Source of the DNA: Microlunatus kandeliicorticis
GTDB taxonomy: Bacteria > Actinomycetota > Actinomycetes > Propionibacteriales > Propionibacteriaceae
Direction of reading: 5' to 3'
Assembly: GCF_014137855.1 (NCBI RefSeq)
Contig: NZ_JACGWT010000001.1
Location: 496,001-560,000, forward strand
Length of the DNA stretch: 64,000 nucleotides
This document shows positions 37,061 through 54,684 of this stretch, piece by piece. Both the position numbers and the translations under genes were made by a program. A model generated the notes under the pieces. It was not told where the DNA came from and ran no database searches. It was given only the letters and a program-made list of their open reading frames with translations. Numbering within the stretch: position 1 is the first letter of the stretch; the number at the start of each line of letters is the position of its first letter.

Positions 37061-37180
37061 CGAATCTCCTCCGCTCCGCCGGCGCCCAGAACGGGCCCGG
37101 AGTGGTCCGGTCGGCAGGATTCGCCGCCAGCAGCGGGACCTCCGGCAGATCCCGACGACGGCCACCCCGGGGCCGAACTA

Positions 37181-37193
37181 CTATGAAGCATAG
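37181..37193. promoter_or_regulatory. Short palindrome between ccsB and the multicopper oxidase
   Basis: CTATG-AAG-CATAG is a perfect 5+3+5 inverted repeat in the 197-base divergent promoter region, 65 bases before the oxidase start. It could be an operator, for example for the BlaI-like protein encoded at 39936, but the sequence does not show which protein would bind. No second copy was found nearby. Confidence 0.35.
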
Positions 37194-37257
37194 GAGATGG
37201 CTGCCGGCAGGACCCGATCGGGGCTTACCGGTACCGGACGAATCTGGAGACAGCAGC

Positions 37258-38838
37258 ATGGCAACAGAGAACGAGCATCCCTCGAGCGACGAGGGCACGA
37301 CGGGGCCGGTCCCAGCCGGCATGCCCATGCGTGCTGGGGGCCTCAGTCGCCGCCGGGTACTGGGGGCCGCGGCCGGAGGTCTGGCTGTGGCCGGGGTGGG
37401 GACCGGAGCGTGGCTGGTCGGACGACCGCGACCGGTCGCACCAGGTGGTCCGCAGGTTCTGGCGGTGGAACGTGATCGACCGACCACCGGACGGGTGGTC
37501 GAGAGGGTTCTCCGGCTCGGCCCGGCCGAACTCGACCTGGGCGGCCGGGTGGTCCGCACCTGGGCCTTCGACGGACAGGTCCCGGCCGCCCCGATCCGGG
37601 CCGAACCGGGGGACGAACTGCGGATCCGGGTGCGCAACGGGCTGCCCGAGCCGACCACCGTCCACTGGCACGGTCTAGCGCTCCGCAACGACATGGACGG
37701 GGTGCCCGACGTGACGATGGCGCCGATCGCGCCGGGCGCGGGCTTCGACTACGGCTACGTCGTCCCGGAACACCCTGGAACCTACTGGTTCCACCCTCAT
37801 GTCGGGACCCAGCCCGACACCGGCCTCTACGGTCCGCTGATCGTGACCGATCCGGCCGACAACGGCTACGACGAGGACGTCGTCCTGGTCCTCGACGACT
37901 GGACGGACGGCTGGGGTCGTTCTCCGCAGGCTCTGTTGACCGACGCTCGCCGCAACGGCATGGGTGGCGGAGCGGGAGGGAGCGGCGGAATGGGCGGAAT
38001 GGCGGGGATGGGGATGCCGTCGGCGACCGAGCCGTTGGGCGCCGATACCGGCGACGTCAGCTACCCGGCTCATCTGATCAACGGCCGGGTGCCGTCCGAC
38101 CCCTTCGTCGTCTCGTCGTCGCCGGGGCGTCGACTGCGGCTGCGGTTGATCAACGCCGGTGCCGACACCGCCTACCGGTTCGCGGTCGGTGGCCATCGGT
38201 TGACCGTGACCCATGCCGACGGCTTCCCGGTCCGGCCGGTCGAGGTCGACACCCTGCTGCTCGGGATGGGGGAGCGCTACGACGTCACGGTGACCGCCGG
38301 TAGCGGTGTCTTCCCCGTCGTCGCCGTACCGGAGGGGAAGAAGGATCCGATCGCTGCCGGGCTGCTGCGCACGGCCCGCGGGCGTACGCCGCCGATGGGG
38401 ACCCGACCCGCCGAGCTGCGCGGCCGGATGCTCGGTTACGGCGACCTGGTCGCCACCGATGCGGTTGCGCTGAGGTCGAGAGCCCCGGATCTGAGCCTGT
38501 CGATGTCCCTCACGATGGCCGACGGCGGCAGGCAGTGGCTGATCAACGGGCGCCCGTACGACGACCGGCAACCGCTGCCGGTCGAGCAGGGGCAGCGGGT
38601 TCGCCTCGACCTGGTGAACCGATCGATGATGTTCCACCCGATGCATCTGCACGGGCACAGCTTCGCGCTCGCCCGGGGCGACGGGAACGGCCCGCGCAAG
38701 GACACGGTGAACGTGCTGCCGATGGGCCGGACGAGCATCGAACTGGACGCCGACAACCCGGGTCAGTGGCTCGCGCACTGCCACAACACCTACCACCTGG
38801 AACTCGGGATGGGCACCGTGCTCTCCTACCGGACCTGA
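37258..38838 (+). CDS. Tat-exported multicopper oxidase
   Basis: The start is ATG 37258, with GGAG nine bases before it; an upstream in-frame ATG at 37183 is weaker. The 526-residue product has a Tat signal (SRRRVLGAAAGGLAVAG) and all four copper-binding blocks: TTVHWHG, TYWFHPHVG, MFHPMHLHGHSF and HCHNTYHLELGM. A Met/Gly-rich loop (GGMGGMAGMGM) lies in the middle, as in oxidases that oxidise Cu(I). It probably detoxifies cuprous copper outside the membrane, which fits the copper genes further along. Confidence 0.93.
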   Translation: MATENEHPSSDEGTTGPVPAGMPMRAGGLSRRRVLGAAAGGLAVAGVGTGAWLVGRPRPVAPGGPQVLAVERDRPTTGRVVERVLRLGPAELDLGGRVVRTWAFDGQVPAAPIRAEPGDELRIRVRNGLPEPTTVHWHGLALRNDMDGVPDVTMAPIAPGAGFDYGYVVPEHPGTYWFHPHVGTQPDTGLYGPLIVTDPADNGYDEDVVLVLDDWTDGWGRSPQALLTDARRNGMGGGAGGSGGMGGMAGMGMPSATEPLGADTGDVSYPAHLINGRVPSDPFVVSSSPGRRLRLRLINAGADTAYRFAVGGHRLTVTHADGFPVRPVEVDTLLLGMGERYDVTVTAGSGVFPVVAVPEGKKDPIAAGLLRTARGRTPPMGTRPAELRGRMLGYGDLVATDAVALRSRAPDLSLSMSLTMADGGRQWLINGRPYDDRQPLPVEQGQRVRLDLVNRSMMFHPMHLHGHSFALARGDGNGPRKDTVNVLPMGRTSIELDADNPGQWLAHCHNTYHLELGMGTVLSYRT

Positions 38839-38883: not shown

Positions 38884-39939
38884 TCAGGACAACAGACCGG
38901 AGGCCGGGCATACCCGGTCCAGCCAGGCGGCCACCGCAGGTGTCAGGGCCACCAGCACCGGGGCCAGGGCCAGCGCGGTCGTGAATGCGACAGCAGCCAG
39001 TCCGGCGCCCGGTGGGTGCGACTCGCGGGTGAGTCGGGCGATCCGGGCCGGTACGTCCGCCCCGCCGGCTCCGAGGGTGCCGATCGGTGGCTCGGCGCCG
39101 CCCAACGCCACCATCGCGGTGGCGACGGCGCGCCGTCCGGAGACGCGGACCGCGGCGTCGTCGGCAGCCATCTCGACCAGGGTCCGGAGTTCGCGGGCGG
39201 CCAGTGCGAAGACACCAACCGATGCGAAGGTGCGTTGCAGCACGCCCGCGCCGAACAGGATCCGGTCGTGGCGGTGGGTCAGGTGATCGCGTTCGTGGGC
39301 GAGCACGGCGGCCAGCTCGCCCGGGTCCAGCCGCCCCAGCGCGCCGCTGGTGAGCACCACGACCGATCTGCGGCCGGGCAGCACGTAGGCGGCTGGACGT
39401 GGGTGCGGCAGGACCAGGGCCGCCGAGACCGGCTCGAGCTCGGCGACCAGGTTCAACGCGGCACGGTGCCGGCGTTGGCTGGACCGGGTCGCCCGCCACA
39501 CCCCGTGTCCGACCACGGCCAGCCGGAGCACCGGGATGCTCACCGTCACCGCCAGCGCGACGACCGCAGCCGTCCGCGACCATCCCGGCATCGAGGCGAG
39601 GGGATGGTCAATCGGACCGGCGCCCAGGCAGAGCCGGGCCAACGCGGCGAGCCAGTGCTGACGCTCGTCCGGCGGGACGACCGGGCCGGGCCGGAGCGGG
39701 GCGGCCGGGAGGAGGCCGGGAGCGACCGGCCGCCAGCGTGGCACGGGTACCAGCGCCATCACGGCGACCACCGCGGCCGCGAACGGGGTGAGCAGTACCG
39801 ACACCGTCAGTCCCCGCCAGGCGGCGATGCCCAGTCGGGGGTGCCGGTGTGGCCAGGACGCTGCGGACAGCGTCCGTGCGCCCCCGGTGGCGAGCAGGAC
39901 CGTGCCGGTCAGCAGCAGCGACACCAGCGCTGCGTTCAT
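38884..39939 (-). CDS. M56-family membrane metallopeptidase (BlaR1/MecR1-like)
   Basis: The 351-residue protein has membrane helices at the N-terminus (LVSLLLTGTVLLATGG, VSVLLTPFAAAVVAVMALV), a middle helix and a C-terminal one. The cytoplasmic zinc motif is AVLAHERDHLTHRHDR (HExxH near residue 220). It lacks the penicillin-binding sensor domain of BlaR1. M56/BlaI pairs transmit envelope signals by cleaving the repressor. The start overlaps the blaI stop by four bases. It is convergent with the oxidase gene. Confidence 0.9.
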   Translation of the reverse strand: MNAALVSLLLTGTVLLATGGARTLSAASWPHRHPRLGIAAWRGLTVSVLLTPFAAAVVAVMALVPVPRWRPVAPGLLPAAPLRPGPVVPPDERQHWLAALARLCLGAGPIDHPLASMPGWSRTAAVVALAVTVSIPVLRLAVVGHGVWRATRSSQRRHRAALNLVAELEPVSAALVLPHPRPAAYVLPGRRSVVVLTSGALGRLDPGELAAVLAHERDHLTHRHDRILFGAGVLQRTFASVGVFALAARELRTLVEMAADDAAVRVSGRRAVATAMVALGGAEPPIGTLGAGGADVPARIARLTRESHPPGAGLAAVAFTTALALAPVLVALTPAVAAWLDRVCPASGLLS

Positions 39940-40316
39940 CGCGACCGCTCCGGGGGCTCGGGCTCACGGTCCAGCCAGGCCCGCACCCGTTCGACCTCGG
40001 CGGCACTCATCGTTTCGACGAAGTGCAGCAGGACGGACTCCCGGTCGTCGCTGGTCGCGAACACCTCGCGCAACAGGTCGGCCGCGTGCTGCTCGCGGGT
40101 CCGGGTCGGCCGGTAGTGGAAGGCCCGACCCTGCTTGCGGCGTTCGAGCAACGCCTTGCGGCCGAGGTTCTGCAGCACGGTCTGGACGGTGGTGTACGCG
40201 AGCGGGCCCACCCGGTCGCGGTTCAGCTCGGTCAGCACCTCCCGGGCCGAGGCGTCCCGGTCGCGGTTCCAGAGGAGCGCCATCACCTCGGCCTCGAGCG
40301 ATCCAAGACGCGGCAC
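39936..40316 (-). CDS. BlaI/MecI/CopY-family repressor
   Basis: GTG 40316 starts a 126-residue winged-helix repressor with LGSLEAEVMALLWNRDRDASAREVLTEL and TVQTVLQNLGRKALLERRKQGRAFHY, the family's DNA-binding part. A C-terminal dimerisation part follows. It shares an operon with the M56 peptidase that would cleave it. It lies 60 bases downstream of the nuoN-like gene on the same strand, so it may also be transcribed with the Complex I-like genes. CopY-type Cys residues for copper are absent. Confidence 0.9.
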   Translation of the reverse strand: MPRLGSLEAEVMALLWNRDRDASAREVLTELNRDRVGPLAYTTVQTVLQNLGRKALLERRKQGRAFHYRPTRTREQHAADLLREVFATSDDRESVLLHFVETMSAAEVERVRAWLDREPEPPERSR

Positions 40317-40376: not shown

Positions 40377-41795
40377 TCAGCCTGCACCGATCACGCGCCA
40401 GAGTAGTGCCGAAGCGATGCCGAGGAGCACGCTCAGGCCCGCGACGGCGACCGCCACCGTCGCGCCCCAGCGCCGGACCGAGGTGACCGGTCGCCCCGAC
40501 CGCACCAGTGGGGCGATCCAACGCAGGTAGTAGAACAGGCTGAGCAGCGAGTTCAGCAGCACCACGAGGGCCAGCCAGGCGTCGCCCCCCTCCCAGGCGG
40601 CCACGGTGATCGCCAGCTTGCCGGCGAAGACCGCGGCCGGCGGGGTGCCGACCAGACCCAGCAGCGCCACCAGCAGCGCCCCGGCCAACCAGGGTTGCCG
40701 GCCGGCCAGACCGGTGTACTCGGTCAGGGTCCGGCGCCCGGGAACGGCGGCGATCACCGCGAACGCAGCCAGGTTGGTCACCGCGTAGCCGGCCAGGTAG
40801 ACCACCAGCGCACCCGTGGCCAGTCCGCTGCGGCCGGCCATCGCCACCGGCACCAGCAGATAGCCGGCCTGACTCACCGTCGACCAGCCGAGCAGCCGCT
40901 GCGGGTCGTTCTGGCTGAAGGCGGCCAGGTTGCCCAGCGTCATGGTGACCACGGCCAGGATCGCCACCAACAGCGCGGCCCGGGACGGACCTGGCAGCAC
41001 GGTGACGAGCCGGAAGGCCGCCACCAGCGCGCCGATCTTGGGCACGGTGGTCAGGTAGGAGGCAGCCAGTACGCCGCTGCCCTGGGCGGCGTCCGGCACC
41101 CAGAAGTGGCCGGGCACGGCGCCGATCTTGAACATCAGACCGGCGAACAGCGCGACGGTGCCGACGATCAACGGGCCGGTCGGGGCGGTGGCCAGCCCGG
41201 CCTCCAGCCCGGGGTAGTCGGTCCGGCCGCCGAGACCGTACAGGACGGTGACCCCGGCCATCAGGACGATGCCGGAGAGCGAGCCGAACAGATAGGTCTT
41301 GAGCGAGGCCTCGGCGGCCAGCGGTGTCCGGGTCAGCCCGACCAGGGCGTACAGCGGGACGCTGGCCAGTAGGAAGCCGGTGATCACCAGCAGCAGGTCC
41401 TGCGCCCCGGCCAGCACCAGGGTGCCGGTGGTGGCCAGCAGCAGCAGGACGCAGAGCTCGGCCTGGCGTGCCGATCCGGCCAGTTCGTCCCCGGCCAGCA
41501 GCACGACGATCGCCGTGGCTCCGACCGCGATCAGCCGCACGGCGGTGGTCGCGTGGTCGATCGCGAAGTTGCCCTCGAAGACCGTCCGGATGCCCCGACC
41601 GAGGGTGAGCGTCGTGCTGCCCAGGCTGCCCGCGCAGCTGACCAGGGTGAGCAGGCGGGCCAGGTTCAGCCGTCGGCGGGGCAGGAACGAGCCGGCCAGC
41701 AGCACCACCAGGGCGCCGGCCACCAGCCACAGCTCGGGCAGCAGACCGAGCACATCGGCGCCGGAGGCCATCTGCGGCACCATCTGCGACACCAA
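40377..41795 (-). CDS. NuoN-like subunit of a Complex I-type membrane module
   Basis: The 472-residue protein has about 14 helices and the antiporter-like core FAGLMFKIGAVPGHFWVPDA with Lys and His, then LTTVPKIGALVAAF. The usual Glu in helix 5 (LELLSL) is not seen; the equivalent stretch reads ITGFLLASVPLYALVG. Start is TTG 41795 or GTG 41792 right after the nuoM-like stop. It is the last pump-like subunit of the leftward operon. It would form one proton channel of the membrane arm, unless the missing Glu has disabled it. Confidence 0.85.
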   Translation of the reverse strand: MVSQMVPQMASGADVLGLLPELWLVAGALVVLLAGSFLPRRRLNLARLLTLVSCAGSLGSTTLTLGRGIRTVFEGNFAIDHATTAVRLIAVGATAIVVLLAGDELAGSARQAELCVLLLLATTGTLVLAGAQDLLLVITGFLLASVPLYALVGLTRTPLAAEASLKTYLFGSLSGIVLMAGVTVLYGLGGRTDYPGLEAGLATAPTGPLIVGTVALFAGLMFKIGAVPGHFWVPDAAQGSGVLAASYLTTVPKIGALVAAFRLVTVLPGPSRAALLVAILAVVTMTLGNLAAFSQNDPQRLLGWSTVSQAGYLLVPVAMAGRSGLATGALVVYLAGYAVTNLAAFAVIAAVPGRRTLTEYTGLAGRQPWLAGALLVALLGLVGTPPAAVFAGKLAITVAAWEGGDAWLALVVLLNSLLSLFYYLRWIAPLVRSGRPVTSVRRWGATVAVAVAGLSVLLGIASALLWRVIGAG

Positions 41796-41796
41796 C

Positions 41797-43284
41797 TCAG
41801 CCGCCCAGCTGGCGGATCAGGGTCTGCGCGGCCGGCGTGATCACGGCGAGCAGCGGCCGGGGGACCAGCCCGATCGCCACCGCCGGCACCAGCAGCAGTC
41901 CGGCGGCCAGGACCTCGTGCGGACTCAGGTCGGCGAAGTCGACCGATGCGCCCCGCTGCGGACCGGTGAAGACGCGCTGGAGCGCCCGGAGGAACAATCC
42001 GGCGGTGATCAGGATGCCGAGCAACGCGACCGCGGTCACCGGGGCGAGTGCGATGCTCCCGGTGAAGATCTGGAATTCGGCCACGAAGCCGCTGAAGCCG
42101 GGCAGGCCGAGCGAGGCGAACGCGGCGAGCCCGAACATCGCGGTCAGCCGGGGTGCACTGCGGGCCAGGCCGCCGTAGTCGTCGAGGGCGTAGCTCTGCC
42201 GGCGCTCCCAGAAGGTGCCGGCGAGCAGGAACAGCGCGCCGGTGATCAGACCGTGGCTGACCATCTGGGTGACCGCTCCGGTGACCGCGATCTGCCGGGC
42301 CACTTCGTCGCTGCGTGCGGTCAGGCCGGCCACCCCGACCCCGAGGACGACGTAGCCCATGTGGTTCACCGAGGTGTAGGCGATCGTCCGCTTCAGATCG
42401 GTCTGAGCCAGCGCGACCAGCGCGCCGTAGAGCACCGACACCACGCCGACCACGATGATCACCCACGACCACTGTCGCCAGCTCTCGGGCAGCATCGGCA
42501 TCGCGATCCGGACGAAGCCGTAGGTGCCCATCTTCAACAGCACGGCCGCCAGCACCAGCGACCCGACGGTGGGGGCGTCGGTGTGGGCCGGCGGCAGCCA
42601 GGTGTGGAACGGGACGGTCGGGGTCTTGACCGCCAACCCGATCAGCAGCAGGACGATCACCAGCGTGGCCGCGCCGGGCCGGCCGACCAGCGGCGGATGA
42701 GCGGCCAGGGCCACCATGTCGAAGGTGTGCGGATTCGACGCGACGAACAGCCCGATGAACGCGCCGAGCAGGGCCAACGAGCCCAGAAACGTGTACAGGA
42801 AGAACTTCAGAGCCGAACGGCGGTGGGTCGCGCCGTGGCCCCAACGCGCTATGACCAGATACATCGCCACGATCGACAGGTCGAAGAAGACGAAGAAGAG
42901 GATCAGGTCCTGGGCCGCGAACAGCCCGAAGCAGGTGCTCTGCAGGAACAGGTTGACCGCGGCGTACAGCCGGGGCCGGTCGTGCTGGGCGAACGCGTAC
43001 GCCGCAGCCGCGACGAAGATCACCGCGGTCAGCCCGAGCAGCGGCAGGGACAGCCCGTCCACGCCGACGTGGTAGCTGACGCCCACGCTCGGGATCCAGC
43101 GCAGCTGCTCCTCGGCCCACAGTCCGGAGGAGCCGGGCCGGGCCGTGACCCAGAGGGTCACCACCAGGACGAACTCGGCCAGCGCCGTGACCACCCAGAC
43201 CCAGCGGGCGACCAGGTCCGGCAGCCGAACCACGCATAGCAGCAGCCCGACAACCAGCGGCAGGAAGATGATCAAGGAGAGCAT
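41797..43284 (-). CDS. NuoM-like proton-channel subunit
   Basis: The 495-residue protein matches the NuoM family: DLILFFVFFDLSIVAMYLVI, VKTPTVPFHTWLPPAHTDAP (channel Lys and His), LLKMGTYGFVRIAM and AYTSVNHMGYVVLG. The conserved Glu of FWE in helix 5 appears as Asp in FFDL. About 14 helices are present. ATG 43284 lies just after the nuoL-like stop. Charged residues of the half-channels are mostly kept, so ion pumping remains plausible. Confidence 0.9.
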   Translation of the reverse strand: MLSLIIFLPLVVGLLLCVVRLPDLVARWVWVVTALAEFVLVVTLWVTARPGSSGLWAEEQLRWIPSVGVSYHVGVDGLSLPLLGLTAVIFVAAAAYAFAQHDRPRLYAAVNLFLQSTCFGLFAAQDLILFFVFFDLSIVAMYLVIARWGHGATHRRSALKFFLYTFLGSLALLGAFIGLFVASNPHTFDMVALAAHPPLVGRPGAATLVIVLLLIGLAVKTPTVPFHTWLPPAHTDAPTVGSLVLAAVLLKMGTYGFVRIAMPMLPESWRQWSWVIIVVGVVSVLYGALVALAQTDLKRTIAYTSVNHMGYVVLGVGVAGLTARSDEVARQIAVTGAVTQMVSHGLITGALFLLAGTFWERRQSYALDDYGGLARSAPRLTAMFGLAAFASLGLPGFSGFVAEFQIFTGSIALAPVTAVALLGILITAGLFLRALQRVFTGPQRGASVDFADLSPHEVLAAGLLLVPAVAIGLVPRPLLAVITPAAQTLIRQLGG

Positions 43285-43285
43285 G

Positions 43286-45178
43286 TCAGCCGATCACGAT
43301 CAGGAGCACGGCGACGACGATCACGACGGCCGCGCTCTGCAGGTAGTACTGATGGATCTGGCCGGTCTGCGGTCGGCGGGCCAGCCGGGCCAACCGGCGG
43401 ACGGCGCGGCCAAGACCCTCGACCAGCCCGTCCAGGTCGGACCGGTCGAATCGGGCTGCCGCCCCGGCGAGCGCGACGGTGCGCCCGGCCGCGGTTTCGA
43501 CGCCGGCGTCCAGCATCCGGTCGTCGAAGCGGGCCAGCAGGCCGGCCAGCCGGTCGACCGGCGCTACCAGCCCGGCCCGGGCCGCCCGCTCGAGTCCGAA
43601 CCAGTCCAGCAGCAGCCGGGTCGGGCGGGTCGACCGGACGGGCCGGCGTTCGGCCACCGCGGTCCGACGCCAGGCGATCGCGGTCACCACCAGGGCCAGC
43701 CCCGCGGAGCCGATCAGCTCGACCACGCCCTCGGCCGGGTGCGGGCCGCCCACCGCGGCGGCCAGTGGGTCCGAGACGGCCGGCAGCGCCAGCACCCCGA
43801 GCGCCACCGCAGCCAGGGCGAGCAGGATCAACGGCGGCCACATCGCGGGCTCGATCCGGCGCGTCCCGGGTTCGAACTCGTCCCACCGGTCGGTCTCGGG
43901 TGAGCGACCCGACCAGATGATCTGCAGCACCCGGCCGGCGTAGGCCGCCGACAGCGCCGTGCCGAGTAGACCGAGCAAATAGAGCGGCCACCCGCCCTCG
44001 GATGAAATTCTGGATGAGGTTGTGGACAGGGCCACGGCCAGCACGCCCTCCTTGCCGGCCCACAGCGACAACGGGGCGATCCCGGCCAGACTGAGCAGAC
44101 CGACCGTGGCCAGAGCGCCGAGCAGCGGCCACCGCCGGGCGACGCCCCGCAACGCGCTCAGGCGACGGGTGCCGAGCGCCGACAACCAGGCTCCGGCGGC
44201 CAGGAACAGCAGCGCCTTGGTGGCCGCGTGCGCCAACAACTGACCGACGCCGGCGCTCACCCCGCCCAGCCCGGCCGCCAGCACCACGAAGCCGAGCTGG
44301 GCCGAGGTGGAGGCAGCCAGCACCTGCTTCACATCGCGCTGGGCCAGCGCGACCAGGCCGAGCCCGACCGTGGTCAGCGCGCCGATCCAGGCCACCGTCG
44401 TCCCCACCACCGGCGTCCGTGCGAGCAGCTCGGGCACCCGGAGCAGCAGGTAGCCGCCCATCGCCACCATCGCCGCCGAGTGCAACAACGCGCTGACCGG
44501 ACTCGGGCCCTCCATCGCCCGGGAGATCCAGAACGTGAACGGCAGTTGCGCGGCCTTGCCGATCGCCGCCGCCGCGATGCCCGCGGCCACCACGGTGCGC
44601 CACGGCTCGGCCACGTCGGACATGCGGGCCAGGTCGAGCGTCCCGCCGCCCGCCAGAGCCGCGCCGGCGGCCAGGTAGAGACCCAGGTCGGCGGTCCGGG
44701 TGGTGACAAAGGCGACCACGCCCCCGGTCACCGCGGCCGGCCGGCGCCAGTCGAAGCCGATCAGCGCGTACGAGGTCGCGCCCATCACCTCCCACCCGAG
44801 GATCAGCGTCGGCAGCGTGCGGGCGGCCACCGTGGTCAGCACAGCGGCCACAAACAGCAGCATCAGACCGCCGAACCGGGCCGGCGACTCGGTCACGTCG
44901 GCGCCGGCGAACACCAGCACCAGGACGGCGACCACCACCACCGCGACCCCGACCACCCCAGCCAGCGGATCCATCCCCAGCGCAAGATCGGCCTTGGCCA
45001 GGAACGGCGTCCGCACCGTCGACTGACCGACGGCGAACCCCGTGGTCAGCACCAGCGTCAGCGCCGCGACCGTCAGGGTGATCGTCACCGCGGCCCGGCG
45101 GGACCGGACCCCGGAGAGGGCCAGCACCGCCCCGGCCGCGGCGGGCAGTCCGGGGACCAGCCAGAGCAGGGCGTTCAC
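43286..45178 (-). CDS. NuoL-like proton-channel subunit
   Basis: The 630-residue protein has the NuoL landmarks TLILGWEVMGATSYALIGF (helix 5 Glu), GKAAQLPFTFWISRAMEGPS, SALLHSAAMVAMGGYLLLR, QRDVKQVLAASTSAQLGFV and HAATKALLFLAAGA. A long C-terminal part fits the lateral helix. In the family the motif is normally DAMEGP; here it is RAMEGP. GTG 45178 overlaps the nuoK-like stop. All residues needed for a proton path appear to be present. Confidence 0.92.
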   Translation of the reverse strand: MNALLWLVPGLPAAAGAVLALSGVRSRRAAVTITLTVAALTLVLTTGFAVGQSTVRTPFLAKADLALGMDPLAGVVGVAVVVVAVLVLVFAGADVTESPARFGGLMLLFVAAVLTTVAARTLPTLILGWEVMGATSYALIGFDWRRPAAVTGGVVAFVTTRTADLGLYLAAGAALAGGGTLDLARMSDVAEPWRTVVAAGIAAAAIGKAAQLPFTFWISRAMEGPSPVSALLHSAAMVAMGGYLLLRVPELLARTPVVGTTVAWIGALTTVGLGLVALAQRDVKQVLAASTSAQLGFVVLAAGLGGVSAGVGQLLAHAATKALLFLAAGAWLSALGTRRLSALRGVARRWPLLGALATVGLLSLAGIAPLSLWAGKEGVLAVALSTTSSRISSEGGWPLYLLGLLGTALSAAYAGRVLQIIWSGRSPETDRWDEFEPGTRRIEPAMWPPLILLALAAVALGVLALPAVSDPLAAAVGGPHPAEGVVELIGSAGLALVVTAIAWRRTAVAERRPVRSTRPTRLLLDWFGLERAARAGLVAPVDRLAGLLARFDDRMLDAGVETAAGRTVALAGAAARFDRSDLDGLVEGLGRAVRRLARLARRPQTGQIHQYYLQSAAVVIVVAVLLIVIG

Positions 45179-45489
45179 CGGGCCGGGTCCTCGGCCAGAT
45201 CGGTCAGCTGGTCCGTCATGTCCGAGCCGCGCGTGCGGTGCACGAGGACGGCGACTGCGAAGCCCATCGCCATCTCCAGCGTCATCACCGCCAGCACCAC
45301 CAGCACCAGCACCTGCCCGCTGACGTCCGGAGCCAGGAACAGCCAGAGCGCGCCGGCGGCCAGCACCACAGCGTTGAGCATCAGCTCGAGGCCCATCATC
45401 ACCATCACCACGACCTGCTGGGACAGCGCGCCGTAGAGCCCGACGCAGAACAGCGCGGCGGCGACGATCAGCACCAGGGGGAGGATCAT
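45175..45489 (-). CDS. NuoK-like subunit
   Basis: ATG 45489 starts a 104-residue protein with three helices: LPLVLIVAAALFCVGLYGAL, VMVMMGLELMLNAVVLAAGA (with the conserved Glu of the E-channel in MGLELMLNA) and VLVVLAVMTLEMAMGFAVAV (second conserved Glu). These match canonical NuoK. It overlaps neighbours on both sides by four bases (ATGA and GTGA types). The frame continues upstream as antisense-free extension, which is not coding here. Confidence 0.9.
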   Translation of the reverse strand: MILPLVLIVAAALFCVGLYGALSQQVVVMVMMGLELMLNAVVLAAGALWLFLAPDVSGQVLVLVVLAVMTLEMAMGFAVAVLVHRTRGSDMTDQLTDLAEDPAR

Positions 45490-46055
45490 CGGCCCACCCC
45501 GCCCGGTTGCGGATCGCTGGCCACGCGGCGGTCCAGGTCGTCGCCGAACCGGTCGTAGCGGGTCCGGTGCGAGGCCAGCACCACGCCGGCGACGATAGTG
45601 GCGAACATGACCGGACTGATCGTCATCATCACCAGCATCTTGTCGCCCATCAGCGCCTGACCGAGCTGCCGGGCCCGGGCCGGCGCCGCGTGGGGATGCT
45701 GCGGCCACGGAGCGAGCAGGATGCCGACCACCAGCAGGACGAACAGCCCGGCCGAGGCCACCAGCGCCGGTCTCTGGCCGTGCACCATGCTCATCGGTAT
45801 CAGGGCCGGGTTCATCCCCATGAACATGATCATGAAGACCGCCATGATCGCCATCTCCATGATCATCATCAGGATGGTGATCACGCCGGGATAGGTCAGA
45901 CCGAACAGCACCAGGGCCCCGCCGACGGCGACGAAGGAAATCGCGAGGGCGTAGGTAGCCCGGGCCATCGAGTCGATAACGAAGACCAGAGCGCCGCTGA
46001 CCACCGCGACGAGCGCCAGCACGAGGAAGACGATGATGAAGACGACGACGTTCAT
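45486..46055 (-). CDS. NuoJ-like subunit
   Basis: ATG 46055 starts a 189-residue protein with five helices, including VVVFIIVFLVLALVAVVSG and YALAISFVAVGGALVLFGLTYPG. The stretch VITILMMIMEMAIMAVFMIMFMGM is unusually Met-rich. Canonical NuoJ has a helix with a pi-bulge here, and the Met density may suit copper or be chance. It starts at the nuoH-like stop (four-base overlap) and ends at the nuoK-like start. Confidence 0.85.
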   Translation of the reverse strand: MNVVVFIIVFLVLALVAVVSGALVFVIDSMARATYALAISFVAVGGALVLFGLTYPGVITILMMIMEMAIMAVFMIMFMGMNPALIPMSMVHGQRPALVASAGLFVLLVVGILLAPWPQHPHAAPARARQLGQALMGDKMLVMMTISPVMFATIVAGVVLASHRTRYDRFGDDLDRRVASDPQPGGVGR

Positions 46056-46978
46056 GACCACCCCCCGACGGTGACCAGCAGCGAGACCACCAGCAGTTGC
46101 AGCAGTGCGGCCGGCAGCAGGATCAGCCAGCCGATCTCCATGAACCGGTCGGGCCGAAGCAGCACCAGCCGGTTGCGCAGCACGACCAAGGCGGCGACCA
46201 GCACCGCGGACTTGACCAGCAGCCAGCACCAGGACGGCAGCAGTGGTCCCGCGCCGCCGCCGAGGAACAGGGCGGCGGTGAACACCGACCCGGCGACCAG
46301 CAGCAGGTAGCGACCGGTGAGGGCCAGCCACCGGTCCGGCCCAGACAGTTCGCCGAGGACGCCGCCGGCCAGATCCGGGCCGGCCGCCGGGCCGAGCGAA
46401 CCCCAGACCGAGAACCCGGCCACGCCGACCAGCAGCACGACGAAGGCCAGCGGCATCCAGACCACGTACGGCAGCCCGGCCTGGGCGGCGACGATGTCGG
46501 TGACCCGGAGGCTGTGGGCGGCCACCGCCGGCGCGGTCAGGGCGAACATCAGCGGGAGCTCGTACGCCAGCGCCGAGGCCAGGAAGCGGAACGCCCCGAC
46601 CAGGGCGAAGGTGGCGTTGGCGCCCCAGCCGAGCAGCCAGACGAGAGCCCAGACGGCGACGTCGGCGGTGTTGAACCAGACGACGCCGACGGCGGAATCG
46701 AGCACCGGGGGCGGGCCGAGCGGCACCACGGCCAGCATCAGCAACGGCACCAGCACCAGCCCGGCGCCGGCGATCCGCCACAAGAGCAGGTCCGCACCGG
46801 GCGCTGAGCGACGCCGTTGGCGCAGCAGCCGGGCGGTTTCGGCCAGCGGCAGGGTCAGGCCGTGCCGCACCGACGGTCCGGCCAATACGCCGCCGAACGC
46901 CGCCGCGCAGAGACCGCCGACCCCAAGCACGACGACGGTCAGCACGACGCTCAGCACGGCCGAGGCTGCGTCGGTCAT
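46052..46978 (-). CDS. NuoH-like subunit lacking the quinone-site motif
   Basis: ATG 46978 gives 308 residues and about eight helices. YELPLMFALTAPAVAAHSL (YEVPL block) and RPDRFMEIGWLILLPAALL (RxDQLMxxGWKxLLP block) identify NuoH. The acidic AExNRxPFDLxEAESE loop of canonical NuoH, which lines the quinone chamber, is replaced by AAGPDLAGGVLGEL. That makes normal quinone reduction unlikely. It overlaps the unusual B/D-like gene by four bases and would be the contact point for any peripheral subunit. Confidence 0.85.
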   Translation of the reverse strand: MTDAASAVLSVVLTVVVLGVGGLCAAAFGGVLAGPSVRHGLTLPLAETARLLRQRRRSAPGADLLLWRIAGAGLVLVPLLMLAVVPLGPPPVLDSAVGVVWFNTADVAVWALVWLLGWGANATFALVGAFRFLASALAYELPLMFALTAPAVAAHSLRVTDIVAAQAGLPYVVWMPLAFVVLLVGVAGFSVWGSLGPAAGPDLAGGVLGELSGPDRWLALTGRYLLLVAGSVFTAALFLGGGAGPLLPSWCWLLVKSAVLVAALVVLRNRLVLLRPDRFMEIGWLILLPAALLQLLVVSLLVTVGGWS

Positions 46979-48066
46979 CCGGCGGCTCCGACCGGGTGGT
47001 CGACCGGGCTGCCCGCGGAGGTTTCCGCAGCGATGAAAGCCAGCCCGGCCAGGCTGGCCACGGTCAGGCGGACGTCGGCCAGTTCGGACCCGGTCAGTAG
47101 ACCGGGCAGCAGTTCGGCCAGGGCGGGCAGATCCTGCACCGCCGGTCCAGGCGCAGTCCGGTCGTTCCCGGGATCGACCAACCGGAGCAGTCGGTCGTAG
47201 CAGTCGCCGCCCCACTCCACCGGGACGTCGACGGCGTCGACGGGTCCGACCCCGCGCAGAGCGCGTTTCAGCGGCCAGGACCGCGCGATCCGACGCCGGA
47301 GGTCGACCGGGTCCGGGCCAGAACCGGTCAGACCGAGCCGGTGGTCGCGGGCGGCCAGTACTCGGTCGGCCAGTGCGCCCGCACCGGTCAGCTGCAGCAG
47401 CCGAGCGGCCCAGTCCAGCCGGTAGGCGAACGGATCGTGGACCGGAATCCGCTGGGCGGCGGTGACCTCGACCGCGGCGACCACGTCGCCCTGCAGGGTC
47501 AGCAGCAGGCTCAGACCGGCCGGCCAGTCGGGCAGCGCCGGCCCGAGCGGCAGGTGCAGGACGTCCATCTCCAGTCCGTCGCGGTCGTCGGCGCCCGAGG
47601 CCAGCGCGATCCCTCCCGGCCCGCCCATGTCCATGTCGCCCATGTGGTCGCCCATGTCCATGTCGCCCATGTCGTGGTCGCCCATGTCGTGGCCGCCGTG
47701 CTGATCGGGCTCCGCCGACGGCAACGGGTCCTCGGCGCGGTTCCAGGCGAGGTAGTCGGCGGCCAGCTCGTCGAGCACTCCGGGGAGCTCGGGAACTGCT
47801 GAGAGCGTCCCCCGGACCCGCGGTCCCGGCATGGCCTGCCACACCCGGTCCAGCGCCGCGGCGAGGTCCCCGTGGGGCTCAGAGCCGCAGACCACCAGCA
47901 GATCCGCGTCCGCCGGAGAGGTGGCCAGCGGCCAGCCACGCACCCGGCAGGCGTGCTCCAGCCGCATCCGCAGCTCACCCGCGCCGGGCACCTCCACCGG
48001 CAGCACGTGCAGCCGGCCGAGCGCCAGCCGCCCGAGCAGCCGGTCGACCGTCGCGCTCAGGCCCAT
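46975..48066 (-). CDS. NuoB-like/NuoD-like hybrid with a Met/His/Asp-rich metal-binding linker
   Basis: This 363-residue soluble protein sits where nuoB, C and D would be. Residues about 25-90 resemble NuoB (SPADADLLVVCGSEPHGDL, ALDRVWQAMPGPRV), but the four cluster-binding cysteines are missing. Residues about 122-148 are a repeat of HDMGD and MDMGD units. LHLPLGPALPDWPAGLSLLLTLQGDVV then resembles the first strands of NuoD. A helical remainder contains RRRIARSWPLKRALRGVG but none of the NuoD catalytic blocks. I infer a cluster-free adapter or copper sensor on a membrane module. Confidence 0.7.
   Translation of the reverse strand: MGLSATVDRLLGRLALGRLHVLPVEVPGAGELRMRLEHACRVRGWPLATSPADADLLVVCGSEPHGDLAAALDRVWQAMPGPRVRGTLSAVPELPGVLDELAADYLAWNRAEDPLPSAEPDQHGGHDMGDHDMGDMDMGDHMGDMDMGGPGGIALASGADDRDGLEMDVLHLPLGPALPDWPAGLSLLLTLQGDVVAAVEVTAAQRIPVHDPFAYRLDWAARLLQLTGAGALADRVLAARDHRLGLTGSGPDPVDLRRRIARSWPLKRALRGVGPVDAVDVPVEWGGDCYDRLLRLVDPGNDRTAPGPAVQDLPALAELLPGLLTGSELADVRLTVASLAGLAFIAAETSAGSPVDHPVGAAG
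47621..47703 (-). repeat. Degenerate tandem repeat encoding HDMGD/MDMGD units
   Basis: Repeats of about 12-15 bases built on GGCGACATG encode HDMGDHDMGDMDMGDHMGD and so on. The units alternate His, Asp and Met as in copper-binding segments of CopC/PcoA-type proteins. The repeat lies between the NuoB-like and NuoD-like parts of the hybrid subunit. Confidence 0.8.
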
Positions 48067-48401
48067 CGCAGGGCACCTTCGCGCCAGGCCCAGACCACGC
48101 CCACCAGCAGCACCCCGAGGAAGACGAACATCTCGGTGACCGCACCGATGCCCTCCATCGCCACCACCAGCGTCCAGGGGTACATGAACAGCATCTCGAC
48201 GTCGAAGGCGAGGAAGAGCAGGGTGGCGACGTACCAGCGGGCGTGGTAGCGGGAGAGCGCGTGTTCGCTCGGCGCCAGCCCGGACAGGAACGGCAACGCG
48301 ACCGCGGCCGGCTCGCGGTACAGGAGCCGGTGGCCGGCGTAGAGGACGGCGAGCCCCAGCGACCCGACGATCAGCAGAGCGAGCACCGGGAGAGCCTGCA
48401 T
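48057..48401 (-). CDS. NuoA-like subunit
   Basis: ATG 48401 with GAGAGGAG at good spacing gives 114 residues; an upstream start at 48446 would run through the CsoR box and is rejected. Three helices are present. LLFLAFDVEMLFMYPW matches the conserved FDVExxFLYPW block. The cysteine of the N-terminal YECG loop is missing (the loop reads FLSGLAPSEHAL), which fits loss of the quinone-site interface. It is the first gene of the Complex I-like operon. Confidence 0.88.
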   Translation of the reverse strand: MQALPVLALLIVGSLGLAVLYAGHRLLYREPAAVALPFLSGLAPSEHALSRYHARWYVATLLFLAFDVEMLFMYPWTLVVAMEGIGAVTEMFVFLGVLLVGVVWAWREGALRWA

Positions 48402-48445
48402 GCGGTCCGCTCCTCTCCCGATCGACGCCATGGCCGCCAGCCCCA

Positions 48446-48460
48446 TACCCCCCTGGGGTA
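48446..48460. promoter_or_regulatory. CsoR-type operator before the Complex I-like operon
   Basis: TACCCCCCTGGGGTA is a near-perfect inverted repeat that fits the GC-tract palindrome bound by CsoR (TACCC-N5-GGGTA). It lies 45 bases upstream of the nuoA-like ATG on the minus strand, where it would overlap the promoter. A second copy faces copZ. It predicts that the Complex I-like operon is derepressed by copper. Confidence 0.75.
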
Positions 48461-48516: not shown

Positions 48517-48531
48517 TACCCCTGGGGGGTA
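48517..48531. promoter_or_regulatory. CsoR-type operator before copZ
   Basis: TACCCCTGGGGGGTA lies 30 bases upstream of the copZ ATG. It has the same arms and spacing as the box at 48446-48460. CsoR is encoded downstream in the same operon, which gives a classic copper-feedback circuit. Confidence 0.82.
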
Positions 48532-48560: not shown

Positions 48561-48770
48561 ATGACGACTGGTGAGTATCGGGTGACCGGGATGACCTGCG
48601 AACACTGCGAGATGTCGGTCCGCGAGGAGGTCGAGACCATCGGCGGGGTCGAACAGGTCGAGGTCGACGCCGGAACCGGTCGGCTGGTGGTGACCGCGGC
48701 TGGCGGGATCGACGACCGGGCCGTGCTGGCCGCGGTGGACGAGGCCGGCTATTCGGCGGTCAGGGTCTGA
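48561..48770 (+). CDS. copZ: Copper chaperone CopZ (HMA domain)
   Basis: ATG 48561 (preceded by GAGAGGAG; an adjacent GTG at 48558 is too close) gives 69 residues with the Cu(I) motif [11 protein letters not shown] (residues 11-21) and the ferredoxin-like fold pattern [17 protein letters not shown], then [14 protein letters not shown]. It passes Cu(I) to the CopA ATPase encoded five bases further on. Confidence 0.92.
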
Positions 48771-48775
48771 TCGGG

Positions 48776-51121
48776 GTGGCGGTGTCGACGGCCCCGACCG
48801 ATCGCGATCCGGGTAGCCCCGCGGGCTCGGACCTCGAGCTGCAGATCGCCGGGATGACGTGCGCCTCCTGCGCGATGCGGATCGAGAAGAAGCTGAACAA
48901 GCTGGAGGCGGTGAGCGCGACCGTCAACTACGCCACCGAGAAGGCGCGGGTCAGCGTCCCGGCCGGCTACGACCCCGCACTGCTGATCGCCGAGGTGACC
49001 AAAGCCGGCTACACCGCGACGCTGCCGCCCCCGCCCGCCCCGGAGATCCCGGCCGCCCAGGCCGACGGGTCCGCCGAGGGCGACGGGTCCGCGCGCGCCG
49101 GCGAGGACCCTGAGCTGAGGGGTCTGCGGCACCGGCTGACCGGTTCGATCGCGCTGTCGGTGCCGGTGATCCTGCTCGCCATGGTGCCGCCGCTCCAGTT
49201 CACCGACTGGCAGTGGGCCTCGCTCACGCTGGCCGCACCGGTGGTGGTCTGGGGCGCCTGGCCGTTCCACCGCGCCGCCTGGCTGAACGCCCGGCACCGG
49301 ACCGCGACCATGGACACCCTGGTCTCGCTCGGCACCACGGCCGCCTTTCTGTGGTCGCTCTACGCGCTGTTCCTCGGCACCGCCGGTGCACCCGGGATGA
49401 CCGACCACTTCAGCCTGCGGCCGGCCCACTCGGGCGCGTCCGACACGATCTACCTCGAGGTCGCCGCGGGAGTGACCACCTTCATCCTGGCCGGCCGGTT
49501 CTTCGAGAAGCGGGCCAAGCGGCGGGCCGGAGCGGCGCTCCGGTCGTTGCTCGAACTCGGCGCCAAGGACGTGACACTGCTCGCCGACGGGATCGAGACC
49601 CGAGTCGGCATCGCCGCACTCCGGGTCGGTTCGGAGTTCGTCGTGCGGCCGGGGGAGAAGATCGCCACCGACGGCGTCGTCATCGCCGGCACCTCGGCGG
49701 TCGATGTCTCGATGATGACCGGGGAGTCCGTGCCGGTCGAGGTCGGCATGGGCGACGCGGTCGCCGGCGCCACGGTGAACGCGGGCGGTCGGCTGGTGGT
49801 GCGGGCCACCCGGGTCGGCACCGACACCCAGCTCGCGCAGATGGCCACGCTGGTCGAAGAGGCGCAGACCGGCAAGGCCCCGGTCCAGCGGCTGGCCGAC
49901 CGGGTGGCCGGGGTCTTCGTCCCGGTCGTGCTGGGGATCGCAGTGCTGACGCTGATCGGTTGGCTGGTCGCCGGCGCGACCGCAGTCGAGGCCTTCACCG
50001 CCGCGGTGGCCGTGCTGGTGATCGCGTGCCCGTGCGCGCTCGGGCTGGCCACGCCGACCGCGCTGCTGGTCGGCACCGGCCGGGGCGCGCAGCTGGGCGT
50101 GCTGATCAAGGGTCCGGAGGTGTTGGAGTCGACCCGCCGGGTCGACACCGTCGTCCTGGACAAGACCGGCACCGTCACCGTCGGCGCCATGAGCCTGGTC
50201 GACGTGCTGCCGGCGGCCGGCGAGGACGCCGCCGAGGTGCTCAGGCTGGCCGGAGCGCTCGAGCACGCCTCCGAACACCCGATCGGCCGGGCGGTGGCCG
50301 CCGCGGCCGCCGACCGGCTCGGCCCACTACCGGACGTGCAGGAGTTCGCGAACCTCGAGGGCCGCGGGGTCCGCGGTCGGGTGGAGGACCGGCTGGTCCT
50401 GGTCGGCCGTGGCTCGTTGGTCGGCGGCCCCGACGGTCCTGACGGAAGTGACGGACCTGAGAGCACCGACCGCACCGGTGCGGGGCTGGTTGCCGCCCGG
50501 ACGGAGGCGGAGCGGGCCGGTCGGACAGTCGTCACGGTCGGCTGGAGCGGTGCGGTCCGCGGGCTGCTGGTGCTGGCCGACCGGGTGCGACCGACCAGCG
50601 CGGAGGCGGTGGCCGGACTGCGTCGGCTCGGGTTGACGCCGGTGATGCTGACCGGCGACAACGCGGTGGTGGCCCGCCGGATCGCCGACGAGGTCGGGAT
50701 CGGTGAGGTCGTCGCCGAGGTGCTGCCGACCGACAAGGCTGCGGTGGTGGCGCGGCTGCAGGCCGAGGGTCGGGTGGTGGCGATGGTCGGTGACGGCGTC
50801 AACGACGCCCCCGCGCTCGCCCGGGCCGATCTCGGTCTGGCCATGGGCACCGGGACCGACGTGGCGATCGAGGCCTCAGACATCACCCTGGTGCGGGCCG
50901 ACCTGCGGAGCGCCGTGGATGCGATCCGGCTGTCCCGGCGCACGCTCGGCACCATCAAGGTCAATCTGTTCTGGGCCTTCGCCTACAACGTCGCGGCGAT
51001 CCCGGTCGCCGCCTTCGGGCTGCTCAACCCGATGCTCGCCGGTGCGGCGATGGCGTTGTCGAGCGTGTTCGTGGTCGGCAACAGCCTGCGGTTGCGTCGT
51101 TTCCGGGGGACGGATCGATGA
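48776..51121 (+). CDS. copA: Copper-exporting P1B-type ATPase CopA
   Basis: The 781-residue pump has an N-terminal HMA domain (GMTCASC, Cys 29 and 32), eight expected membrane helices and the transmembrane copper site CPC at 418-420. It also has the phosphorylated Asp in DKTGT (462), the SEHPIGRAV nucleotide-site motif, MLTGDN and GDGVNDAP near 672. TGES is the actuator motif. It exports Cu(I). GTG 48776 is five bases after the copZ stop, and its own stop overlaps the csoR start. Confidence 0.95.
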
Positions 51122-51513
51122 CGAGCGGCGATGATGGTGGTCCATCCCGTCGGCGCCCGACGGGCCCGGACCGAGGAGGCAGCCCGGTGACCGAACCGAT
51201 CGGCGACGGCGGCGACCAGGTCGAGGTCGCCCATCACGGGTACATCAGCGACAAGCAGCAGTACCTCCGACGACTGCGCCGGATCGAGGGGCAGGCGCGC
51301 GGCCTCTCCCGGATGATCGAGGAGGAGAAGTACTGCATCGATATCCTGACCCAGGTCAGTGCGCTGACCCGGGCCCTGCAGGCGGTGGCGATGGGGTTGC
51401 TCGACGACCACCTGGAGCACTGCGTCATGGACGCGGCCCGCGTCGGCGGCGATGAGGCCGAGGCGAAGCTCAAGGAGGCGAGCGAGGCGATCGGCCGGCT
51501 GGTCCGCTCCTGA
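51118..51513 (+). CDS. csoR: Copper-sensing repressor CsoR
   Basis: The 131-residue product holds the CsoR copper site: Cys in [11 protein letters not shown], then His and Cys in DDHLEHCVM. The [15 protein letters not shown] helix is the DNA-binding region. ATG 51118 overlaps the copA stop. GTG 51187, with GAGGAGG in front, is a strong alternative that removes 23 disordered residues and gives the usual length. The repressor releases DNA when it binds Cu(I). Its targets probably include all three boxes at 48446, 48517 and 52771. Confidence 0.93.
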
Positions 51514-51593: not shown

Positions 51594-52283
51594 TCAGAGT
51601 TTCGACAGCAGCCCCGTCATGGTGGTGATCTCTTCGTTCTGGGTCCGGACGATGCTGCGGGCCAGGGCGATCGCGTCCGGGTTCGACCCGTCGGCGATCT
51701 CGGTCTTCGCCATCACCACCGCCCCGCGGTGGTGGCCGATCATGCCCTGCAGGTACAGCTTCTGCGCGGTCGCGGTGGAAGCGGAGCGGAGCTCGGCCAG
51801 TTCGGCCGTGGTGAGCATCCCGTCGCTGCCGCCATGGTTCATCCCTCCCATGCTGCCGGCGGTCGGGGCGCCCCAGATCTTCAGCCAGCCGGTCATCGTG
51901 GTGATCTCCGGTGCCTGTTCGGCCTTGATCTGTTCGGCCAGCTTCTGCGCCCGCGGATCGAGCCCGGGCTTGGCCAGGAGCAGGTCGCTCATCTGCACCG
52001 CCTGCTGGTGGTGCGGGATCATCATCTGGGCGAACATGACGTCGGCCTCGTTCGCCGCCCGGGCACCGGCGCTCGGGCTCGCCGAGGGCATGCCGGACAT
52101 CGAGGGCATGCCGGACATCGAGGGCATGCCGGACATCGAGGGCATGCCGGACATCGAGGGCATGCCGGAGGACGATCCGGTCGAGCCGCAACCGGCGGCG
52201 GCGGCAACCGCCAGGCCGAGGACGACCGCGGCCGCGGCCCGACGGCGGGGCATGCGGAACTGCTGGATGGTTCGGTAGAACAC
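51594..52283 (-). CDS. DUF305 lipoprotein with Met-rich repeat
   Basis: GTG 52283 follows AAGGAG at ideal spacing and gives 229 residues. A signal with lipobox (AVAAAAGCG) is followed by repeated SGMPSM units (about residues 38-66), then the DUF305 domain: DVMFAQMMIPHHQQAVQMSDLL, then MNHGGSDGM and GMIGHHRGAVVMAKTEIADG. The paired MIPHH and MIGHH segments are the family's metal-binding signature. DUF305 proteins are often found with copper resistance genes, probably binding copper outside the cell. It follows the DUF6153 gene on the same strand. Confidence 0.92.
   Translation of the reverse strand: MFYRTIQQFRMPRRRAAAAVVLGLAVAAAAGCGSTGSSSGMPSMSGMPSMSGMPSMSGMPSMSGMPSASPSAGARAANEADVMFAQMMIPHHQQAVQMSDLLLAKPGLDPRAQKLAEQIKAEQAPEITTMTGWLKIWGAPTAGSMGGMNHGGSDGMLTTAELAELRSASTATAQKLYLQGMIGHHRGAVVMAKTEIADGSNPDAIALARSIVRTQNEEITTMTGLLSKL
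52084..52170 (-). repeat. 18-base tandem repeat in the DUF305 gene
   Basis: The plus-strand unit GAGGGCATGCCGGACATC occurs four times without change (52084-52155), plus a partial fifth. It encodes SGMPSM repeats in the linker after the lipobox. Perfect identity of the copies suggests recent expansion or ongoing slippage, so copy number may vary between strains. Confidence 0.9.
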
Positions 52284-52770: not shown

Positions 52771-52785
52771 TACCCCCCTAGGGTA
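52771..52785. promoter_or_regulatory. Third CsoR-type operator, before the DUF6153-DUF305 pair
   Basis: TACCCCCCTAGGGTA matches the two boxes around copZ in arms and length. It lies immediately upstream of the leftward DUF6153 gene. It also precedes the ACR3 remnant on the plus strand, which starts 16 bases away. This places the small membrane protein and DUF305 lipoprotein in the copper regulon. Confidence 0.75.
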
Positions 52786-54635: not shown

Positions 54636-54684
54636 CCGTCAGCCGCCCCGGTGTTTGCATCGCCTACGGATTCGAGGAGCATCG

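Follow-up and report, generated by a model that had tools for sequence, protein, structure and literature searches.

A reduced relative of complex I with strong links to copper in Microlunatus kandeliicorticis, a candidate proton-coupled Cu(I) exporter

A partial operon of respiratory complex I (NDH-1), nuoAHJKLMN, also termed the 'partial NDH-1 operon', has been published by Penn and Jensen (2012) and later authors as encoding a proton pump for marine or osmotic adaptation (PMC3314556; PMC6002675; PMC6676996; PMC8622039). It was presented as a marine adaptation gene set in Salinispora (PMC3314556), and has been described in Kocuria flava and K. polaris CD08-4 (PMC6002675), in marine Streptomyces (PMC8622039) and in Streptomyces including rhizosphere strains and strain SM254 from copper-rich mine fluids, where it was read as osmoadaptation (PMC6676996). 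The operon considered here lies in a 64,000-nucleotide stretch of the actinomycete Microlunatus kandeliicorticis (NCBI RefSeq assembly GCF_014137855.1, contig NZ_JACGWT010000001.1, positions 496,001 to 560,000), hereafter the window, whose own numbering is used throughout. It is very likely the published operon, since K. polaris CD08-4, which stands in the published table (PMC6002675), is also one of the relatives found in this analysis (locus L126). A preliminary description of the window that knew of nothing comparable therefore has to be corrected, as the operon was already in print, though without a copper role. The word 'copper' does not occur in the main text of PMC3314556, and an eighth gene, methionines and a role in copper do not appear in the available parts of the published descriptions. 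A limited collection of papers yielded neither a copper reading of nuoAHJKLMN, nor a copper-linked complex I, nor a complex-I-like target of the repressors CsoR or RicR. Judged from its sequences, the operon looks like a reduced complex I relative, carried by many bacteria, in which the electron-handling parts are dead, metal-binding parts stand in their place and copper is coupled to ion movement. The case for descent from complex I and for a link to copper is strong.

Complex I is among the nearest described systems. The module shares its seven membrane subunits, its L, M and N proteins fall beside the canonical ones, and the glutamates of K and the channel residues of L and M are kept. It differs in that its operon is without C, E, F, G and I, in that B and D are fused into a degenerate protein (here BD) with a metal-binding insert, in the loss of iron-sulphur (Fe-S) ligands and quinone-site residues, and in the gain of methionines in A, J and K. 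The Mrp cation/proton antiporters are built from the same kind of subunit; they have antiporter subunits of one superfamily with those of the module and make ion coupling without electrons plausible, whereas the module has in addition NuoA, NuoH and the B/D remnant, and the MrpA and MrpD proteins of the same genome fall outside the module clades. Among copper exporters, CusA is known for its methionine relay. If the reading developed below is right, the module would resemble the CopA and CopB P1B ATPases and CusA-type exporters in binding Cu(I) by Met, His or HMBD ligands (HMBD being present in five long BD forms), but its transport core is without sequence match, it has no ATPase subunit, it has eight subunits and it would be linked to protons. 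Its setting recalls the RicR and CsoR regulons, in that the adjacent CsoR-family gene is best matched by RicR, below the cut-off, and operator-like boxes lie at genes of copper or heavy-metal type.

The eight-gene operon and its BD subunit

The operon runs leftward over positions 40377-48401 as eight genes in the order A-BD-H-J-K-L-M-N, all on the minus strand and with ends that overlap or nearly touch, as read from open reading frames (ORFs) and Pfam families. Oxidored_q4 (A), NADHdh (H), Oxidored_q3 (J) and Oxidored_q2 (K) were each scored on the longest ORF, and Proton_antipo_M was matched three times, in L, M and N. The module comprises the following features, in which TM denotes a transmembrane helix.

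48057-48401, minus strand: NuoA-like subunit (Pfam PF00507, E=1.7e-23 on the longer ORF 48057-48446; conserved in 97 loci)
46975-48066, minus strand: BD subunit, most likely a degenerate NuoB-NuoD fusion, 363 residues, between A and H (profile comparison)
47614-47706, minus strand: insert of BD rich in His, Met, Asp and Gly, residues 121-151, with 4 His and 7 Met
46052-46978, minus strand: NuoH-like subunit (Pfam PF00146 on the longer ORF; alignments)
45486-46055, minus strand: NuoJ-like subunit (Pfam PF00499 on the longer ORF; PDB matches)
45780-45869, minus strand: TM3 and next loop of the NuoJ-like subunit, Met-rich, residues 63-92 (column conservation; J model)
45175-45489, minus strand: NuoK-like subunit (Pfam PF00420 on the longer ORF), both channel Glu kept, extra Met nearby
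43286-45178, minus strand: NuoL-like antiporter subunit (Pfam PF00361; tree, clade beside canonical NuoL)
41797-43284, minus strand: NuoM-like antiporter subunit (Pfam PF00361; NCBIfam TIGR01972 above cut-off; tree)
40377-41795, minus strand: NuoN-like antiporter subunit (Pfam PF00361; tree), TM5 Glu lost

The probable start of A is the ATG at 48401, with a purine-rich stretch immediately 5' of it. A canonical nuo operon lies about 100 kb from the module (C1:417-433 kb), where A, B, D, H, K, L, M and N were read directly and J by family. The set of seven Nuo homologues given in the preliminary description stands, as does the absence of NuoC, E, F, G and I, to judge from the gene content of the window and from annotated relatives. 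That there is no canonical B or D is also true, but the degenerate NuoB-NuoD fusion between A and H had gone undescribed.

The same order, A to N with BD in second place, recurs widely. Among 296 genomes of the class (this one included) 19 had a BD match; one of them (G235, locus L053), perhaps a low-complexity match, held no other module gene and was dropped, leaving 17 of the 295 other genomes and that of the window as carriers. A scan of genome contigs added the best 80 of at least 217 confirmed relatives, all Actinomycetes by title, which as best matches to the window BD are not a random sample. In the resulting 98 loci (97 plus the window) the predicted genes number 97 for A, 96 each for H, J and K, 94 each for L and M and 93 for N; the genes missing from L072, L080, L124, L132 and L134, and the N of L130, fall at loci that in the tblastn map extend as far as a contig end. 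Against plasmids, tblastn with the window J matched 15 records and with the J of Acuticoccus 31, partly the same, including Roseivivax, Halomonas, Vreelandella, Sulfitobacter, Paracoccus, Thioclava, Nitratireductor and Rubrobacter. All eight non-Actinomycete plasmid loci that were read (seven proteobacterial and one from Rubrobacter) have the same gene order, five of them with a long, HMBD-bearing BD. Because the eight-gene order is identical in many genomes, a pseudogene or an assembly artefact was rejected. Two module loci each are present in Pseudonocardia oceani (L109, L121) and Mycobacterium sp. WUMAC-067 (L071, L088), the module occurs on plasmids of Mycobacterium avium (L228, pMAH135) and M. 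intracellulare, and in Halomonas KO116 (L231 17864-20136) the ergothioneine genes egtB and egtD directly follow it.

The window BD protein matched no Pfam family and only weakly an NCBIfam model (NuoB, E 0.055), and the best PDB sequence match, again a NuoB chain, had an E value of 0.72. Profile comparison by hhalign was more informative. It joins the window BD family to a family of long BD forms (99.8%, E 6e-28), the long forms to canonical NuoD (98.9%, E 3e-17) and to NuoB (94%), and the window family to canonical NuoB (92%, E 6e-7, over 39 columns). Five long homologues of 611-816 residues carry two to five HMBD copies at the place of the insert together with Complex1_49kDa (NuoD) above the Pfam cut-off; PF00346 (NuoD) exceeded its cut-off in six of the ten BD proteins scanned (E 4e-17 to 3e-7, the sixth being the Halomonas form), HMBD was present in five of the ten, and the NuoB family gave below-cut-off Pfam matches only. 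An AlphaFold2 model of BD from 59 sequences (pLDDT 85.5, pTM 0.81) returned 733 Foldseek matches at E<=10, of which the 50 listed are all complex I, NDH-1, MBS or formate hydrogenlyase entries, their chains resembling B- or D-type subunits by chain letter and length; the B-type part of the model fits best (2.6 Angstrom over 86 columns). Because of these profile comparisons, the NuoD remnant in the long forms and the Foldseek matches, BD is most likely a NuoB-NuoD fusion carrying an insert. Inserts with at least five His plus Met were found in 87 of 91 BD proteins, the medians being 10 His, 5 Met and 72 residues. This count covers 91 of 97 proteins, leaving out L045 (a run of N), L070 and L115 (motif filter) and L124, L132 and L134 (contig ends); A6 took 58 of the 75 passing BD proteins from genome contigs, and A7 took 47 of the 78 J proteins counted there.

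The residues on which electron transfer would depend are gone from BD. Four cysteines are invariant in 18 canonical NuoB proteins, whereas in 17 BD proteins no column that is invariant or nearly so holds a cysteine, and the invariant cysteines of the long forms (155, 169, 172) fall within the HMBD region. The quinone loop GPQHPSTHG, invariant in 16 canonical D proteins, reads GPxLxxWPxxL in the 17 BD proteins and GPxFPGLPxG in the five long forms. H, L, M and N were each compared with one canonical sequence from the same genome, the roles of their quinone-chamber and ion-channel residues being general knowledge. Missing from H are the acidic loop of the quinone chamber and the YERK..RKGP stretch. 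N is without the TM5 Glu that its canonical counterpart keeps; L and M retain the TM5 acid, the GK/KTP lysine and further TM Lys or Glu. On sequence grounds, then, the module is an eight-subunit membrane complex from complex I that would no longer handle electrons, its membrane arm complete and B and D, which in complex I hold the final Fe-S cluster and the quinone site, surviving as a degenerate fusion. The earlier proposal that it works without NADH oxidation gains in strength, E, F, G and I being missing and the B/D remnant being without Fe-S and quinone-site residues. Carboxylates and lysines conserved in K, L and M agree with the further suggestion that the module may either use an ion gradient or build one up.

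Several alternatives bear on this point. An energy-converting hydrogenase, MBH or formate hydrogenlyase was rejected on the lack of NiFe CxxC ligands and of an invariant cysteine in BD. Another possibility is that copper has itself taken over the redox chemistry, Cu(I)/Cu(II) on BD or on a His/Met cluster replacing cluster N2 as the carrier to quinone, with proton pumping or the reverse. BD would indeed sit where cluster N2 meets quinone in complex I, and genes for multicopper oxidases are frequent neighbours (20 of 80 contig loci by tblastn). Such a machine is nonetheless improbable, given the losses in H of the loop and N-terminal stretch and in the D loop of its His, and given that no other cofactor site was seen.

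The origin of the module was addressed with a tree of 44 proteins, in which module L, M and N each form one clade (support 99/91, 99/97 and 100/98). Under midpoint rooting each clade adjoins its canonical counterpart from this genome, whose MrpA and MrpD stand outside on long branches. That all three lie beside their own canonical counterparts points to a single origin from a whole complex I. An ordinary partial nuo duplicate was rejected, since the L, M and N proteins of the module form clades apart and BD does not resemble canonical B or D. It could still be supposed that the module is a spare membrane arm that borrows B, C, D, E, F, G and I from the canonical operon, as canonical J, B and D genes are present in all 18 module genomes. 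This is extremely improbable: the module's own B/D remnant would fill the same place, A, J and H are changed where B and D should bind (the binding place being that of complex I), and L, M and N stand in clades of their own.

Methionines gained in NuoJ, NuoK and NuoA

The most distinctive change in the membrane arm is a gain of methionines. Fifteen alignment columns of J hold Met in a share of 0.95-1.00 of the 96 module proteins and in none of 25 canonical NuoJ proteins of the same 18 genomes; the window J holds 14 of these and Ile in one, and a sixteenth Met column is common to canonical J. The Met content of J is 9.7% in the module and 2.4% in the canonical protein. Eleven of the 15 columns and a following His are kept in all eight J proteins from outside the Actinomycetes. 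In a low-confidence single-chain model (pLDDT 66), most of these residues sit in TM3 (helix 55-79, 189-residue numbering) and the loop after it. In complex I, the loops between TM3 and TM4 of J and between TM1 and TM2 of A lie near the quinone site, on the cytosolic side. K gains Met near its two channel Glu, which are themselves kept in 96 of 96 and 94 of 96 proteins; Met at 29, 69 and 73 is found in all eight K proteins outside the Actinomycetes and in none of 25 canonical K. In A, compared with one canonical protein, Met is gained after an FD(V/M)E-type motif and His before it; the window protein has the methionines of FDVEM-FMYPW and the histidines of EHALSRYH where canonical A has other residues. 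Only J, K and, to a small extent, A show the rise; H, L, M and N have no enrichment relative to one canonical protein each. A composition effect was rejected because 25 canonical J and 25 canonical K proteins of the same genomes are without it and module H, L, M and N are not enriched. The J-like subunits of Acuticoccus (L226 11932-12642) and Roseivivax (L230 12001-12903) have a His-rich C-terminal part.

These positions bear on whether copper would be carried by the module or only sensed by it. In a copper-gated ion translocator, BD would sense copper and switch a path for protons (or Na+ or K+) in the antiporter subunits on or off, so adjusting the membrane gradient during copper stress without copper being moved. 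The channel acid and Lys kept in L and M agree with this, as do the Mrp antiporters, which have subunits of the same kind, and the regulation and neighbours described below would fit it just as they fit an exporter. It would be left unexplained why methionines are fixed on a membrane helix of J and close to the carboxylates of K, and not in the soluble part alone, and a gated translocator appears rather unlikely. It is the placement of the methionines together with the metal-binding insert from which we infer that copper is carried. The eighth subunit and the methionine pattern, both undescribed in the preliminary account, carry most of the module's meaning.

Predicted copper control and copper neighbours

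Around the module the window holds a set of copper genes and CsoR-type boxes, as follows.

48446-48460: CsoR-type box of the module, exactly TACCCCCCTGGGGTA, with 48446 lying 45 bases before the probable A start at 48401
48517-48531: CsoR-type box facing copZ-copA-csoR, exactly TACCCCTGGGGGGTA
48561-48770, plus strand: copZ-type HMA chaperone (Pfam PF00403)
48776-51121, plus strand: copA-type P1B ATPase (family matches)
51118-51513, plus strand: CsoR-family repressor (best NCBIfam model RicR, 142.8 bits, under its 175-bit cut-off)
51594-52283, minus strand: DUF305 protein, a frequent module neighbour (family match; neighbour clusters)
52341-52754, minus strand: small membrane protein without Pfam family, its gene preceding that for DUF305
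52771-52785: third CsoR-type box, 17 bases upstream of the small membrane-protein gene, with DUF305 following
37495-38838, plus strand (longest ORF 37102-38838): multicopper oxidase (family match)

The first two boxes and the 45-base spacing are exactly as they had been described. The pattern TACCCN5GGGTA has five sites in the 4.30 Mb genome and the reversed pattern one, for which reason a chance origin was rejected; the TACCC/GGGTA-type boxes in this genome are taken to be CsoR/RicR operators. The fourth genomic box is directly 5' of a second CsoR-family gene and the fifth directly 5' of a P-type ATPase (L274 3493-6059) with, by eye, an HMBD-like CPMHPE..CPICGM motif at its N-terminus. All four boxes other than the module's own thus lie at genes of copper or heavy-metal type, DUF305 being so labelled from module neighbourhoods. 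Elsewhere, an exact box within 300 bp upstream of A is present at 13 of 96 loci (the window included) as compared with 0.8% of 4592 random stretches from the same loci, in a count that includes near-identical pairs and leaves out L116 (short upstream) and L134 (no A).

Neighbouring genes were surveyed by tblastn with five window proteins (CopA, CopZ, CsoR, the multicopper oxidase and DUF305), any match being counted. The preliminary description had proposed a search of actinobacterial genomes for the module beside copper genes, and the pairing does recur in many lineages: a match was found at 52 of 80 contig loci (48 without DUF305) and 7 of 17 loci in genomes of the class, but at canonical nuo in none of 18 genomes, where flanks of up to 20 kb to each side of canonical NuoJ genes were covered (699 kb in total, against 338 kb for the 17 module loci). 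CsoR-family genes gave 49 matches in the 18 genomes and, with positions compared by eye, a distance of 15 kb or less separates one from the module in 8 of the 18 and from canonical NuoJ in 0 of 25 cases. Genes of copper type are among the commonest neighbour clusters. At 32 of 97 loci a copper-island gene in the orientation of A ends no more than 700 bp upstream of it (19 being CopA, CopZ, CsoR, multicopper oxidase or DUF305, the others coming from clusters labelled by eye), and at 7 of 97, the window included, a divergent copper gene lies within 1 kb of A. Outside the Actinomycetes, 7 of 8 loci have annotated copper or heavy-metal genes besides BD within 12 kb; CueR is annotated near the module in Acuticoccus and Roseivivax, and in Rubrobacter genes of copA, csoR and copZ type lie upstream of A in the same orientation. 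Three plasmid loci from Actinomycetes were also read, and metal genes lie near the module in Arthrobacter FB24 and in M. avium, where it adjoins a heavy-metal P-type ATPase. Copper control of the module through a CsoR-type box at its promoter is well supported as a prediction, because the other four boxes are at metal genes, copper neighbours occur in many lineages, none was found at canonical nuo and CueR is annotated near two proteobacterial loci.

The published view of nuoAHJKLMN as a proton pump for marine or osmotic adaptation fares poorly against these observations. Its carriers do include marine Salinispora, Kocuria and Streptomyces (PMC3314556; PMC6002675; PMC6676996; PMC8622039). One of these papers also reports rhizosphere strains, and SM254 from copper-rich mine fluids (PMC6676996). 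Many carrier genera found here are, by their titles, not known as marine, copper-type genes are prominent around the module, and a pump without a redox module would have no energy source, all of which makes a marine or osmotic role very improbable.

Other genes in the window are noted for completeness. A BlaI/CopY-type repressor (39936-40316, minus strand) and an M48/M56-type membrane peptidase (38884-39939, minus strand) lie 60 bases past the nuoN-like gene, and a similar pair is found near the module in locus L117. A 4Fe-4S/NrfD fusion and a molybdopterin oxidoreductase, possibly a respiratory unit, adjoin the copper genes (53088-57633, plus strand).

A possible route for copper

Taken together, the module is probably a copper-induced derivative of complex I, its most likely function being that of a proton-coupled Cu(I) exporter. 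High copper would release CsoR, so that the module would be induced together with copZ-copA-csoR. The BD insert, at the cytosolic face, would bind Cu(I) and hand it on to NuoA, at its His/Met cluster, and to the TM3-TM4 loop of NuoJ, at what is the quinone dock in complex I. Cu(I) would then move along the methionine ladder of J toward the periplasm, its movement being coupled through the carboxylates of A, J and K to protons in L and M (and perhaps the altered N). Transport of copper is itself a deduction from these features, and that it would be exported is suggested because of the neighbouring genes. Export driven by the proton motive force is the most likely arrangement, its direction and stoichiometry being guesses. 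It is conceivable, at a little short of an even call, that the module represents a new class of metal-ion pump with the membrane fold of complex I, in which Cu(I) on the B/D remnant and a NuoJ/NuoK methionine ladder replaces the electron and quinone in proton coupling.

A number of observations weigh against the exporter. As to regulation, 83 of 96 loci are without an exact box within 300 bp upstream of A, and by eye no CueR-type dyad precedes A in four proteobacterial upstream stretches (L226, L230, L231, L232). In the stretches searched by tblastn, none of the five copper genes was found at 10 of 17 loci in genomes of the class and 28 of 80 contig loci, and the Thioclava and Gordonia loci have no annotated copper gene beside the module. 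As to BD, direct comparison of the window family with NuoD by hhalign fails (1.6%), so that NuoD ancestry rests on the long forms; the best Foldseek E value is 1.5e-3, none reaching 0.001, with low query TM-scores (0.18-0.33) among the 50 matches listed; and 4 of 91 inserts are poor in His and Met. As to the proposed path, J columns 68, 88, 138 and 145 (191-residue numbering) are not generally Met outside the Actinomycetes, and among the gained Met of K those at 31, 75 and 91 are less general there than 29, 69 and 73. The single-chain J model is weak, and the sidedness of J TM3 is taken from general knowledge.

How chemistry at the quinone site of complex I is coupled to protons in the distant membrane arm is a long-standing question. 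A derivative without redox chemistry but with the membrane arm, in which new ligands occupy the former quinone site, would allow the two halves of this problem to be considered separately. If the copper reading is true, movement of a metal ion would by itself suffice to run the coupling device of complex I, and an operon now filed under marine adaptation would be re-read. By the same token, copper resistance would gain an unrecognised multi-subunit component, one that is present on plasmids of two phyla and is annotated there as subunits of NADH-quinone oxidoreductase.

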